A model generated the notes under the pieces. The model saw only the letters and a program-made list of their open reading frames with translations, was not told where the DNA came from and did no database searches. The translations under genes and the position numbers were made by a program. Shown here piece by piece: positions 24,933-32,607 of a stretch of 64,000 nucleotides of DNA; the first letter of the stretch is position 1, and every line of letters starts with the position of its first letter. The DNA lies in the IMG/VR virus record IMGVR_UViG_3300008448_000001, positions 140,795 through 204,794 of that record; one strand, given 5' to 3'. The stretch comes from a virus.

Positions 24933-25229
24933 ATGGCAACACACAAACTGCTGGTACTCGAGGACACAGTTCTCCTTACACTTGCGACAAACCCGAATTT
25001 TGTACGGGAATTTCCGTTCCTTGCGAGCGGTGCCGTGCCCACAGCAAAGAAAAGCTGCAAGCCCTGCAATCGGGCGGCGTCCAAACGCGTGCAGGCGATG
25101 CAAACCATAAAGCAGTCTATTGTCAACATGGGTGTTGAGAAGAAGAAACGGCTGAAAGAGATGCTTAGCGCGGAGAAGCTTCGCCTTCGTGTTGCTCAAA
25201 ACGGTAAGGTCGTAGAGTACACTTTTTAG
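24933..25229 (+). CDS. Small basic protein with CxxC
   Basis: 98 residues. Basic and helical in the second half (KQSIVNMGVEKKKRLKEML) with KKSCKPCNRAASKR near residue 40; one CxxC alone is not a full zinc site. It is the last gene before a 0.9-kb gene-free block. Function unknown. Confidence 0.6.
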   Translation: MATHKLLVLEDTVLLTLATNPNFVREFPFLASGAVPTAKKSCKPCNRAASKRVQAMQTIKQSIVNMGVEKKKRLKEMLSAEKLRLRVAQNGKVVEYTF

Positions 25230-25244
25230 ACCTTAATTTAGGGT

Positions 25245-26117
25245 AAAAACGTGTCAGAATAATATGCAGACGACTTATCGTTTGCAGGTCGGTCGAAGTA
25301 CAAAGGCAAACGTACTTTCACTGGCTGAAGTCGAGTATCGCAAAGACCGCACTCACTTGATGTAAAAATCAAGCCGAGGGTAACAGCGTCTTTTGTCTTT
25401 GCGATATTTGCGGGCGGCTAGCACTTGTGTCGTCCTCACCGAGATCTTCTCTATATGGGTCTTGTGAAGCATTACTGTGTGGCGTGTAAAAGTACACGTG
25501 GCACGGTTTCGGGGTTGAACTAAAAGTCTGAAAAGACATCCCCCAGTTAGTGAAAAACTGTTCTGATGAAAAGTCCTAAATTTCTGTGGGCTTCTTCGTT
25601 GGCGTCTTGTTGTATCTTTTTACGCAAGGCGAAGCCAAAAAGCAGTGAACGTTCCGAGAACATACCTTCTCGTTAAAACATAGGTAACGTGGTTACTAGC
25701 TCCACTAAAAAAAGGCTAGCAGATGTTTTGATCAAAAACGATTAAAGCACCCAGTGCGAGTCTGGCGTTTTGTCCAACGTAAAACGATACGCAAAGCTAC
25801 CGCGAAGGAGCCATTAATAATCCGGGGAAGTTCTGGATCGCTTAGCAAGCGGCAACAGCTCGTACCCTTAGGCTAACAACCTAAGCTAGCCTGGGCATAC
25901 AGGTAAAAATGCAGAGCTCACTCTTTTAGGGGTCCTAGTTACAGGATTCGATTACCGCAAGCATAAAGACTGGTGAGAGTCTTTACTGAGTAAGCGGTAT
26001 ACGGCACCATGAATCAGCCTCTACGTGGCGGTGCTAGATAACCAACCGATGATTCATTCCGCGTGTTTTACCACGCAAGCTCTACCGCATTCAGTGGATG
26101 CGGCGGTGGGGCTTTTT
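25245..26117 (+). ncRNA. Candidate giant structured RNA (GOLLD/ROOL-like or novel)
   Basis: No credible gene in about 900 bp, but many hairpins. Examples: TATCGCAAAGAC (25336-25347) with GTCTTTGCGATA (25395-25406); CGACTT (25271) with AAGTCG (25328); GTCT-GAAA-AGAC (25526-25537); CGAGAA/TTCTCG (25655/25667); CGTTTT/AAAACG (25766/25781); CTTAGG/CCTAAG (25867/25880). Further 3' are TAAAGACT/AGTCTTTA (25964/25978) enclosed by TACCGC/GCGGTA (25953/25994), and ATGAATCA/TGATTCAT (26009/26050). It ends in an intrinsic terminator. Size, ornate folding and phage location with a nearby tRNA recall GOLLD and ROOL RNAs, but I cannot confirm the class. End points are approximate. Confidence 0.7.
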
Positions 26118-27222: not shown

Positions 27223-28017
27223 ATGAAACCTGAAGAACTAGCAACGATTTTAACTGAGCACGCGAAGTGGTTAAAGGATGAAGGTGGCAAAAGGGCCAAC
27301 CTGCACAGGGCCGAACTTCGCGGGGCCAACCTTGGTGGGGCCGAACTTGCCATGGTCAAACTTGCCGGGGCCGACCTTCGCGATGCCAACCTTCGCGGGG
27401 CCAACCTTGGTGGGGCCGAACTTGCCATGGTCAAACTTGCCGGGGCCGACCTTCGCGATGCCAACCTTGCCGGGGCCAACCTTCGCGGGGCCAACCTTCG
27501 CAGGGCCTTCCTTTTAGGAGCCAGCCTTATCGGGGCCGACCTGGAAGGGGCCAACCTTTACAAGGCCAACCTTATCGGAGCCAACCTTGCCGGGGCCAAC
27601 CTTCGCGGGGCCAACCTTTACAAGGCCAACCTTATCGGAGCCAACCTTGACGGGGCCGACCTTCGCGGGGTCAACCTTCGCGGGGCCAACCTTCGCCGGG
27701 CCAATCTTGAAGGGGCCGACCTTCGCGGGGCCAACCTTAACGGCGCTGACCTTGACGATGCTAATCTTACTGGGGCAAGAATCGACACCCTGGTTTGTCG
27801 CATGGATATCGATCGTTGGTCGATCTGCGTTTACGCGGACCGAACATCCATCGGTTGCAAAACACAACCTAATGAAAACTGGTTGGCTTGGACATCGGAA
27901 AGCGAAGAGATCAAGAAGATGCACTCCGATGCGGCTTCTTGGTGGGCAACGCACGGCGAGTTTATCAAAGCAGCAATCCGCCACGTGATAAAAAATTCGA
28001 AAGGCAATAACACATGA
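27223..28017 (+). CDS. Pentapeptide-repeat protein 1
   Basis: 264 residues. Residues 1-25 (PEELATILTEHAKWLKDEGG) are the helical cap common in this family. Residues about 26-185 are A[N/D]LxG pentapeptides that fold as a right-handed quadrilateral beta helix. The C-terminal 75 residues ([22 protein letters not shown], then [16 protein letters not shown]) form a separate domain shared with the two other pentapeptide genes here. Such helices can mimic DNA (as in Qnr proteins), but this function is not established for this group. Stop overlaps the next start (ATGA). Confidence 0.85.
   Translation: MKPEELATILTEHAKWLKDEGGKRANLHRAELRGANLGGAELAMVKLAGADLRDANLRGANLGGAELAMVKLAGADLRDANLAGANLRGANLRRAFLLGASLIGADLEGANLYKANLIGANLAGANLRGANLYKANLIGANLDGADLRGVNLRGANLRRANLEGADLRGANLNGADLDDANLTGARIDTLVCRMDIDRWSICVYADRTSIGCKTQPNENWLAWTSESEEIKKMHSDAASWWATHGEFIKAAIRHVIKNSKGNNT
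27316..27465 (+). repeat. Exact 75-bp tandem duplication
   Basis: Two identical, adjacent 75-bp copies (27316-27390 and 27391-27465), each encoding five pentapeptides (one turn and a quarter of the beta helix). This indicates recent unequal recombination or slippage changing helix length by 25 residues without loss of frame. Confidence 0.95.
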
Positions 28018-28673
28018 AACCTGAAGAACTAGCAACGATTTTAACTGAGCACGCGAAGTGGTTGCGTGGCGAGGGCGGAAAGAAAGCCAACTTTTACAGT
28101 GCCAACCTGGTTAGTGCCAACCTTTGCGGTGTTTATATGCGACATTGCGACTTTCGCCTGGCTGAGCTTGTACGGGCCAACCTGGTCTATGCCAACCTTG
28201 GCGAGGCCAACCTGCGAGGTGCCAACCTGTTAGACGCTAAACTGTTCGAGGCTAACCTGGAAGGTGCCGACTTGCGGCATGCCAACCTAAGCGAGGCCAA
28301 CCTTCGAGGTGCCGACCTGCGGCATGCCAACCTGGAAGGCGCCAATCTGTACCGTGCAAACCTGGAAGGCGCCAATCTGTACCGTGCAAACCTGAAAGGT
28401 GCAAACCTGAGCCGCACCGTCGTGATCGGCGCTTGCATCAACGCCGCAATTTGTAGGATGGATTTTGGAGGTTGGTCGGTCTGCGTTTACGCGGACCGAA
28501 CAGCTATCGGCTGCCAGCAGCGCATTAACGAGGACTGGTTAGCGTGGACGCCTGAAAGCGAAGAGATCAAGCAGATGCACGAAGATGCGTCTGCTTGGTG
28601 GAAGTCGCACGGCGAAATGATTAAAGGCGTGATACGGGGTGTGATGGCAAAAGCGAAAGGCGGTGACACGTGA
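28014..28673 (+). CDS. Pentapeptide-repeat protein 2
   Basis: 219 residues. The first 50 bp are nearly identical to the start of the previous gene, so the two arose by duplication. Pentapeptides run from about 27 to 138; the C-terminal domain ([21 protein letters not shown], then [16 protein letters not shown]) is shared. Overlaps both neighbours: ATGA upstream and GTGA downstream, implying coupled translation. Confidence 0.85.
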   Translation: MKPEELATILTEHAKWLRGEGGKKANFYSANLVSANLCGVYMRHCDFRLAELVRANLVYANLGEANLRGANLLDAKLFEANLEGADLRHANLSEANLRGADLRHANLEGANLYRANLEGANLYRANLKGANLSRTVVIGACINAAICRMDFGGWSVCVYADRTAIGCQQRINEDWLAWTPESEEIKQMHEDASAWWKSHGEMIKGVIRGVMAKAKGGDT

Positions 28674-29440: not shown

Positions 29441-29514
29441 GTGACCGTAGCTCAATAGGTTAGAGCAGGAGACTCATAATCTCTCGGTTCCCGGTTCAAG
29501 TCCGGGCGGTCACA
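29441..29514 (+). tRNA. tRNA-Met(CAT) (or tRNA-Ile2)
   Basis: A complete cloverleaf: acceptor GTGACCG/CGGTCAC, D stem GCTC/GAGC, anticodon arm GGAGA-CTCATAA-TCTCT with anticodon CAT, T arm CCCGG-TTCAAGT-CCGGG, discriminator A. No encoded CCA. CAT reads AUG; if lysidine-modified it would read AUA, so tRNA-Ile2 cannot be excluded. A palindromic hairpin around GCTACGTAGC follows. Confidence 0.95.
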
Positions 29515-30714: not shown

Positions 30715-31041
30715 ATGATTGAAGTAGTGCAGTGCCAACTAGCTAGTGACGGCACGCGGGCCATCGTTTCGGTGCGGTCCGACAAAAAGTCGTTTACCGA
30801 GCAGATCGAAGAGCTTGGATCGGCTGCGGCCCGTAACGAGGCCCTAAGAGCCGCGAGTTCCGCTGGCATTAAGGGGTCTCCCGGCATTTCGGGAGCCGCC
30901 CAGGCGATTCACCCGCGAAACAAAGAAGGCAAGTCGTTAGACGACCTTCGCGATAGCGAAGGGAAACCGCTTGACTTTTCGAGCCCGGAAATGCAACCAG
31001 CCTATTACCAGGCTGCCTTTGAGATCACCGCCAAGGTGTAA
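30715..31041 (+). CDS. Hypothetical protein
   Basis: 108 residues preceded by CGAGAGG. N-terminal beta hairpin (EVVQCQLASDGTRAIVSVRS), a helix with Ala-rich segment, then GIKGSPGISGAAQ. No known family. It is the last gene before the second gene-free block. Confidence 0.65.
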   Translation: MIEVVQCQLASDGTRAIVSVRSDKKSFTEQIEELGSAAARNEALRAASSAGIKGSPGISGAAQAIHPRNKEGKSLDDLRDSEGKPLDFSSPEMQPAYYQAAFEITAKV

Positions 31042-31333
31042 TCGCAGGTAATGCCAATTTCGACAGCAATCAGCTAGCCATTTCGGTGGCTAGCTAACGC
31101 AAGGCGGCAACAGCCTAAGTTGCACTAACAAATAAGCCGACCGGGTACGCGAACAAGTTCCGACAGACGGTCAGGTCTAGGTCTCAAAGAATAGCCCTGA
31201 CGCCCGTTAGGCCACCACAGGCAAGCGATTCGGATAGCAAAACATGAGGAGAACAGTCATGAAGCGATGATGATTACAAGACGAGCCGAACTCGGAGGCA
31301 AAACCGATAAGGCGGCAACAGCCTGAGTTGCGA

Positions 31334-31457
31334 GGATCGGCGGCGTGGACAACGACACGCGGAAAGCTGTGCAACGCCTAAACGCATAGACGCAACGGAT
31401 TCGGAACAGATCGAATACCGCCAAGTATGAAAAGCAGGTGTAATTCCTGCCCGATCC
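31334..31457 (+). ncRNA. tRNA-like module 1
   Basis: Acceptor-like GGATCGG (31334-31340) pairs with CCGATCC (31451-31457). A GCGTG-GACAACGA-CACGC hairpin sits in the D-arm position and GCAGG-TGTAATT-CCTGC in the T-arm position, with a 7-nt loop that is not the canonical TTCRA. The central part is long (about 75 nt), containing CGGATTCG/CGAATaCCG instead of an anticodon arm. It is not a normal tRNA. Confidence 0.5.
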
Positions 31458-31619
31458 TTTGCATATGCGAAACCTGCTACTGGTAGCCTACGGGCATGCA
31501 GAGTCCAGTGAAATGGTTAATTTTGTGCCGCAAGGATCTGCTTCCGGAGATAATTCGAAAGGAGCAGGGAGCGGGTAATCGGGTCGTGCCGAGCAAAGAC
31601 ACAGCCGGAGAGACGGCGA

Positions 31620-31713
31620 GGATCGGCGGCGTGGACAGTGACACGCTCACCAACACTCCTGCAAGTATCCAATTGAGTGCAGGCGACAGCAGGTGCTAAT
31701 TCCTGCCCGATCC
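31620..31713 (+). ncRNA. tRNA-like module 2
   Basis: GGATCGG (31620) pairs with CCGATCC (31707). D-arm-like GCGTG-GACAGTGA-CACGC and T-arm-like GCAGG-TGCTAATT-CCTGC are near copies of module 1. The centre can pair CCTGCA with TGCAGG around a 14-nt loop, so there is no 7-nt anticodon loop. Confidence 0.5.
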
Positions 31714-31794
31714 TTTTCGGAGCGGTACGAAAGAAAGATAGTAAAAGGTGCGAAATGACACCAGATAAGCAACCGCTTGTGAGGCTGGTAAATT

Positions 31795-31878
31795 GGATCG
31801 GCGGCGCGGGACCACTGAAAAGTAATCCGCGATGGTGCTCAAAGAGCGGTCTAACATGTTCGAATCATGGCCGGTCCG
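31795..31878 (+). ncRNA. tRNA-like module 3
   Basis: GGATCGG (31795) pairs with CCGGTCC (31871, one G-U). Here the T arm is canonical in the loop: CATG-TTCGAAT-CATG. A CGCGG/CCGCG hairpin with a 17-nt loop replaces a standard D arm and no clear anticodon arm is seen. Preceded by a hairpin CCAG..AAGC-AACC-GCTT..CTGG. Confidence 0.5.
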
Positions 31879-31882
31879 CTGA

Positions 31883-31905
31883 GTTATTAAGGCGTTCTTA
31901 ATAAC
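31883..31905 (+). terminator. 9-bp hairpin closing the second RNA block
   Basis: GTTATTAAG (31883-31891) pairs perfectly with CTTAATAAC (31897-31905), loop GCGTT, followed by a T-rich stretch (GATGTTTGTTGGTTTGTTTT). Terminator-like but without an uninterrupted T run. Confidence 0.5.
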
Positions 31906-31941
31906 TGGATGTTTGTTGGTTTGTTTTGAAAGGGTTTGGTT

Positions 31942-32607
31942 ATGCGTTTTGTTTGTTTTTTGGTTTTAGCATTGGCGAGTTCGCTGGTCTCGGCGCAGAC
32001 ACCGCTACCGGTTCGATTTGTTGAGGCCGGTCAAACTGTGACGGTTCCCAAGGGCAATTACCTGCAGACGCAAGAAGTCATCGTCCGCAAGGGAGGTGCT
32101 CTCATTCTTGAGGCCGGTGTAACTATCCAGGTGAAAGGCCTTGGATTGCCCATGCAGGTCTATGGTTCGCTTTCAGTTAACGGTACCGAGGCTGAACCTG
32201 TGGTGGTCGGCCCCGATGCCGCCGGTGTTTGTGGCACACTGGCAGCGTACCCATCTGCTGACGGCACTAGGCCGCAAGTAACAATTGATTACCTCGAATG
32301 GGCCACTACCCAAAACTCAAACTGCCTGTTTTTCTCAAGGTGCGACTTCGCTGTCGCCAATAGCGTATTTTTGAGCAATGGTGCTAGCAGCACCAACAGG
32401 GTTTGCGTCCAAGCAACAAACGACTCCGCCGGGAGCGTCAACGATTGCTTATTGGAATGCGTTAAGGCGACCGGAGTGACGACGAACGGGATCGTTGTGA
32501 ACGGAAGCGGTGCAGCGGTTGACCTGTGGAACATAACCACAGTTAATTGCGACAATCCGCTAAGGATCAACAAGTTTGTTGCTAAGGTTACAGGAAGCGT
32601 TCGCTAG
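31942..32607 (+). CDS. Secreted beta-helix-like protein
   Basis: 221 residues from ATG 31942 (GAAAGGG upstream). MRFVCFLVLALASSLVSAQ is a cleavable signal peptide. The mature part (GGALILEAGVTIQVKG, then YGSLSVNGTEAEPVVVGP) has the repeated short-strand pattern of a right-handed parallel beta helix as in pectate-lyase-like proteins. It is exported by the infected cell. Enzymatic activity is not evident. Confidence 0.7.
   Translation: MRFVCFLVLALASSLVSAQTPLPVRFVEAGQTVTVPKGNYLQTQEVIVRKGGALILEAGVTIQVKGLGLPMQVYGSLSVNGTEAEPVVVGPDAAGVCGTLAAYPSADGTRPQVTIDYLEWATTQNSNCLFFSRCDFAVANSVFLSNGASSTNRVCVQATNDSAGSVNDCLLECVKATGVTTNGIVVNGSGAAVDLWNITTVNCDNPLRINKFVAKVTGSVR

Follow-up and report, generated by a model that had tools for sequence, protein, structure and literature searches.

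The block and its three modules

The DNA analysed here (the window) is the 64,000-nt stretch at the end of a 204.8-kb IMG/VR virus record, the genome of a phage of about 205 kb. At 31042–31941, flanked by an ORF that ends at 31041 and by one for a secreted β-helix-like protein that starts at 31936, lies a block with three tRNA-like modules, m1 to m3 (Table 1). Modules m1 and m2 have in common a 7-bp acceptor (GGATCGG/CCGATCC), a D-like hairpin (GCGTG-8 nt-CACGC) and a T stem (GCAGG/CCTGC), and they match exactly the original prediction of modules built of a 7-bp acceptor, a D-arm and a T-arm; m3 is real, but its acceptor is one base pair longer and its T stem has 4 bp. In tRNA terms the acceptor branch is 7/5 in m1 and m2 and 8/4 in m3 alone, the latter as read by hand. 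The predicted end of m3 at 31878 had to be moved to 31877, and its T loop proved canonical. The near-identical, non-canonical T loops assigned to two modules were found again in m1 (TGTAATT, 7 nt) and m2 (TGCTAATT, 8 nt). The window contains exactly three copies of the sequence GGATCGGCGGCG, each at one of the modules. A short ORF at 31755–31901 (MTPDKQPLVRL...), with a Shine-Dalgarno site, spans m3; its start is kept at loci L029 and L027 and may be part of a hairpin, CCAG..CTGG.

Table 1. Features of the module array, in window coordinates
Feature	Position	Strand	Parts and remarks
Non-coding array leader	31064..31333	+	Hairpin 31072-31095, pseudoknots, minigene
Leader pseudoknot, copy 1	31103..31123	+	GGC-GGCAACA-GCC..GTTGC; also directly 5' of many modules
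Three-codon minigene	31247..31270	+	AGGAG, then ATG-AAG-CGA-TGA at 31259-31270
Leader pseudoknot, copy 2	31311..31331	+	Ends 2 nt upstream of m1
Module 1 (m1)	31334..31457	+	Acceptor 31334-31340/31451-31457; D-like arm 31343-31360; body 31361-31433; T arm 31434-31450; predicted elbow pair A31352-U31441
Leader hairpin	31601..31617	+	ACA-GCCG-GAGAGA-CGGC; 2 nt upstream of m2
Module 2 (m2)	31620..31713	+	Acceptor 31620-31626/31707-31713; D-like arm 31629-31646; body 31647-31688; T arm 31689-31706; predicted elbow pair G31638-C31696
Module 3 (m3)	31795..31877	+	8-bp acceptor GGATCGGC/GCCGGTCC; large D-like arm; 3-nt-loop hairpin; 4-bp T stem; T loop TTCGAAT; homologous to L029 3070-3152
Closing hairpin	31883..31905	+	GTTATTAAG-GCGTT-CTTAATAAC; 3' end of the block; kept in L029

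All three modules lack an anticodon arm, confirming the earlier reading that no anticodon loop is present, and none encodes a 3' CCA, a T run or GCT coming next. A scan of the window for an acceptor combined with a T arm and a D arm picked up m1, m2 and also the real tRNA within the block and a single candidate in 56 kb outside it, so that the modules exceed chance expectation. Two further features of the window were recorded. A non-coding region of about 830 nt at 25229–26063, identical in L019, had no Rfam match and contained no acceptor/T-arm module, and two adjacent pentapeptide-repeat-like ORFs at 27223–28673 have their first codons and C-terminal part in common.

The modules are not ordinary tRNAs

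Analysis of the whole window with ARAGORN yielded only a tRNA-Met at 29441 and no call for m1, m2 or m3. Rfam likewise reported only this tRNA-Met, and the block had no match at either the gathering or a relaxed threshold. Of the canonical tRNA features, the 7-bp acceptor, the 5-bp T stem and the D stem are present in m1, m2 and their relatives, and an anticodon arm with a 7-nt loop and U33 is absent. Ordinary tRNAs interrupted by introns would be favoured by the ARAGORN intron mode, which fitted 22/70 modules. However, 21–29/70 modules were fitted after their middles had been shuffled, so that the fits carry no signal, and the middles are not conserved as a common intron type. We regard this explanation as ruled out by the shuffled-middle control and leave it only a negligible probability; the original view that the modules are "not ordinary tRNAs" thus held. 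A tmRNA was also rejected, as 0/70 modules fitted and Rfam reported none.

The array leader

The leader is 92% identical to L029 1116–1374, with indels of 1, 2 and 9 nt. Stem 1 of its pseudoknot varies elsewhere, to CATC/GATG in L079 and AGC/GCT in L027 and L109 (read by hand). A search with the pseudoknot alone returned ten distinct sequences, which all directly precede an acceptor-like GG start (10/10, read by hand); a full module was recognised by a strict test in five of these ten, and several others were slightly broken. More generally, a hairpin lay within a few bases 5' of the module in 55/88 cases, compared with 23% in shuffles, and took the form either of the pseudoknot GGC-GGCAAC-GCC..GTTGC or of the hairpin GCCG-GAGAGA-CGGC. 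The minigene, which has a strong Shine-Dalgarno site and is located 5' of the pseudoknot, was kept at three codons in L029, L063, L088, L090, L092 and L158, while its codons and stop varied (peptides MKR, MER, MRP and MKN). It was enriched upstream of modules, by counts that are not independent because the homologous leaders are related.

Other leader sequences proved to have a wider distribution. We rejected ACAGCCGGAGAGACGGC as a module-specific signal, since it is much more widespread in phages and mostly has no module downstream; an Rfam run on it produced only a GcvB match, which was judged to be due to chance. The GTGACAGCCGGAGAGACGGC hairpin (31601–31617 in the window; L174–L288) is intergenic in phages and prophages on more than 119 contigs, usually after a second hairpin, and matched no Rfam family. 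By this two-hairpin look, a likeness of appearance and not of sequence alignment, the leader hairpins recall put of HK022, a two-stem antiterminator RNA of about 70 nt that binds the zinc domain of the RNA polymerase β' subunit and suppresses termination.

Relatives in environmental phages

Relatives were sought in IMG/VR with two-half patterns and with a pattern for the 3' half only. The further copies that the original prediction had led us to look for were found, with their paired ends conserved: the two kinds of pattern together placed the same heads in more than 100 IMG/VR contigs. About 70 more modules on phage contigs there are not tRNAs, and dozens of environmental phages besides this one have such modules. 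By contrast with IMG/VR, the two-half pattern had 0 matches in 84,980 bacterial and archaeal genomes (one per species), and the block had no match in INPHARED. For the 3'-half search, the 5' acceptor strand was sought 25–250 nt upstream, and an exact 7-nt partner was present at 73/89 distinct loci, as against 2.7% in shuffles; most of the remaining 16 had a one-base variant such as GGGTCGG. The modules found in this way measured 64–202 nt, most of them 79–202 nt, and only about 14 were of tRNA size. A Met tRNA lineage, searched identically as a control, gave only genes of 67–70 nt where the 5' end was found, indicating that the length expansion is a property of the module lineage and not an artefact of the search.

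Two groups of relatives were noted separately. Acceptors of the form GGGTCGG/CCGATCC, which contain a G3:U70 pair, occur in L029c, L095, L096, L102, L126, L137, L145 and L156; G3:U70 is the identity element for alanine, recognised by AlaRS. In other phages, a family of 160–177 nt (L101 7759–7920, L112, L122, L128, L142, L150 and L159) combines canonical D and T arms, a GGATCGG acceptor and an encoded ACCA with a conserved domain, containing a covarying helix, that replaces the anticodon arm.

The arrays recur beside two families of secreted phage proteins, one of β-helix type and one small CCYWG protein (window 31936–32607, the ORF upstream in L004, and L079, L137, L138, L145, L114, L116 and L075). 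Neither family had a Pfam match, and host searches with the terminase, baseplate, β-helix, CCYWG and DUF669 proteins returned no informative host. The modules could conceivably serve in cis, as RNase P/Z cut sites or as structured regulators of a long transcript that includes the downstream secreted protein gene. They are co-directional with the genes, a minigene and leader pseudoknot lie upstream, and in L058 one module is located between ORFs. Against a role in cis, arrays comprise as many as seven consecutive modules uninterrupted by any ORF, and conservation or swapping of the module bodies would be unneeded; we consider this explanation improbable.

Compensatory changes and a predicted elbow

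Across ten distinct modules whose D loop reads GAYxxNGA, the acceptor, D and T stems were kept with changes on both sides, a conservation that is partly by construction because the stems belonged to the selection. The elbow positions, in turn, played no part in finding or selecting modules. Within one D-loop class, position 19/56 was G-C in ten cases and A-U in three (13/13), and position 18/55 was A·G in nine and G-U in four (13/13); m1 is an A-U case and m2 a G-C case. Over 77 modules, a GG in the D loop was associated with TTC in the T loop (38/16/3/20; Fisher p = 4e-6, with kinship ignored). These data support a D-loop/T-loop contact predicted from covariation, as in the tRNA elbow, where G18/G19 meet U55/C56, or its equivalent.

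Homologous bodies provided further cases. The acceptor GGGTCGG/CCGATCC of L004:782–952 corresponds to GGGTAGG/CCTACCC in L138, a compensated change; the T stem is also compensated, and the body is conserved. Between m1 and L029, one pair of a body helix changes from G-U to A-U. Taken together, the comparison of sequences shows selection acting on the predicted tRNA-like head and on recurrent structured bodies. A graveyard of decayed tRNA genes, recombining through shared acceptor and T-arm sequences, would agree with the shared and swapped ends and with the real and odd tRNAs (loops of 4 to 6 nt, lost U33) in the same arrays. However, decay would break the stems first, whereas here stems and elbow contacts are maintained by compensatory change, and the bodies exceed the length of an anticodon arm and are conserved between contigs. 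We therefore think it quite unlikely that the modules are such remnants.

Bodies and their exchange

The module middles fold more strongly than shuffles (mean z −0.86). Clustering of 136 modules gave 101 body clusters, most bodies being seen once, so that no shared function is visible. The recurring bodies were found in unrelated contigs with differing leaders; one body type of 140 nt, about 95% identical among the five contigs that have it, was combined with four different T loops and with differing 3' flanks. In L029, the place of block 2 is occupied by a close copy of a module from this phage's 70-kb array. Bodies are thus swapped as cassettes at shared ends; beside one array lies a gene for an ERF-type annealing recombinase. 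In the modules as predicted, then, the acceptor, T arm and D-like arm are kept, and a structured, exchangeable body replaces the anticodon arm.

The chief rival to the reading that we prefer is that the modules are natural tRNA scaffolds, in which the head would provide processing and stability and the body would be the working part, protein-binding or regulatory. Such a division of labour could account for the recurrence of bodies at about 95% identity in combination with varied T loops, leaders and 3' flanks, for the structure of the bodies, and for the compensatory changes in the related L101 family. It has to contend with the predominance of bodies seen once and with the complementarity of bodies to the phage's own genome, which was not above shuffles, so that we rejected them as antisense guides to that genome. 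On balance we judge this rival somewhat unlikely.

A second array and a UCA tRNA

The same virus record contains a second array at about 70.2–71.4 kb (L004 668–1906) and one more module at 72.5 kb. Within the second array lies a tRNA with a UCA anticodon (G000:C1:70737–70810; L004 1238–1311), whose acceptor and T stem are exactly those of the modules. The phage conforms to translation table 11, and 57/202 of its genes end in TGA, here an ordinary stop codon; the UCA tRNA is thus not explained by stop-codon recoding, which we rejected. At array loci U33 was kept in 23/36 ARAGORN tRNA calls, compared with 208/214 elsewhere.

These observations bear on the proposal that the modules are translation-active, unusual tRNAs resembling allo-tRNAs, whose bodies conceal a decoding arm. 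The 8/4 branch of m3 and the G3:U70 pair of some modules (read by hand) are in line with it. However, m1, m2 and most relatives are without an anticodon arm, U33 is lost in 13 of the 36 calls, and the UCA tRNA is unneeded for recoding. This proposal appears very improbable.

Discussion

The closest described precedent is provided by the irregular polycistrons of allo-tRNAs detected in soil metatranscriptomes (Mukai et al. 2017, reviewed in PMC7609411). The irregular soil sequences have an odd cloverleaf, and some of them are not chargeable by E. coli enzymes and are thought to belong to mobile elements (PMC7609411). Like them, the arrays described here are made of irregular tRNA-like units, and m3 has the 8/4 acceptor branch. 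Allo-tRNAs, however, keep the anticodon arm on a 12-bp branch of 8/4 or 9/3, whereas m1 and m2 have a 7/5 branch and another structure in place of the arm, and thus neither that branch nor the anticodon arm and serine identity (long variable arm) of allo-tRNAs. The present arrays also differ from those of soil, by comparison of descriptions and not of sequences, in being phage-borne and cassette-like and in having leader pseudoknots.

Other known systems are more distant. A tmRNA also joins the upper half of a tRNA to other RNA in place of the anticodon arm, but the modules have a full D-like stem, are 64–202 nt in size and are present in each phage as many different copies. Changes in the anticodon loop of phage tRNAs have been argued to evade tRNases (PMC10264068); these tRNAs too form clusters whose anticodon loops depart from those of the host, but they still decode and carry point changes, whereas the modules have no such arm at all. 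Like GOLLD, ROOL and other large ornate RNAs of phages, the block is a large structured non-coding region near tRNA genes, but its units are separable tRNA-like modules, and it matched no Rfam covariance model.

We propose, with a probability of roughly 45%, that the block encodes non-decoding tRNA-like RNAs in a polycistronic array and that these are released and most likely act as decoys. Host RNase P would make the 5' cut, beside the leader hairpin, and the 3' cut, at the T run, would be made by RNase Z or a similar enzyme, releasing each module as a stable L-shaped RNA. The RNAs so released may then work in trans, their targets being host proteins that recognise the elbow and acceptor of tRNAs. 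Their most likely role, of which we are less certain, would be that of decoys that cannot be cut at the anticodon loop, in the contest of the phage with tRNA-targeting defences, for which the loop changes of phage tRNAs (PMC10264068) offer a precedent, and body exchange between arrays would supply variety. Three observations weigh against this reading: we found no RtcB tRNA-repair ligase, the modules do not encode CCA, and some bodies are long and conserved at about 95%, beyond the needs of a pure decoy. Among the possibilities first raised, which were a tRNA mimic, a processing signal or part of a larger RNA, the mimic gains structural support from the stems and elbow compensated in relatives.

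A bolder version of these ideas, which is possible though doubtful, would be a tRNA-scaffold system in the phages of one host group, with conserved heads and interchangeable effector bodies shuffled between unrelated phages behind a leader of pseudoknot and three-codon minigene, and serving to block host tRNA-based defences or to rewire host tRNA enzymes.

The presence of tRNA genes in phages is usually explained by codon supply and, more recently, by evasion of defences that cut tRNAs. Because the modules keep the elbow and acceptor and have given up the anticodon arm, codon supply cannot explain them; they allow the two ideas to be told apart and direct attention to host proteins that bind tRNA as the targets. 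Our results suggest a widespread family of phage tRNA mimics with a function other than codon reading, and since standard tRNA finders miss them, such modules may be common and as yet uncounted.
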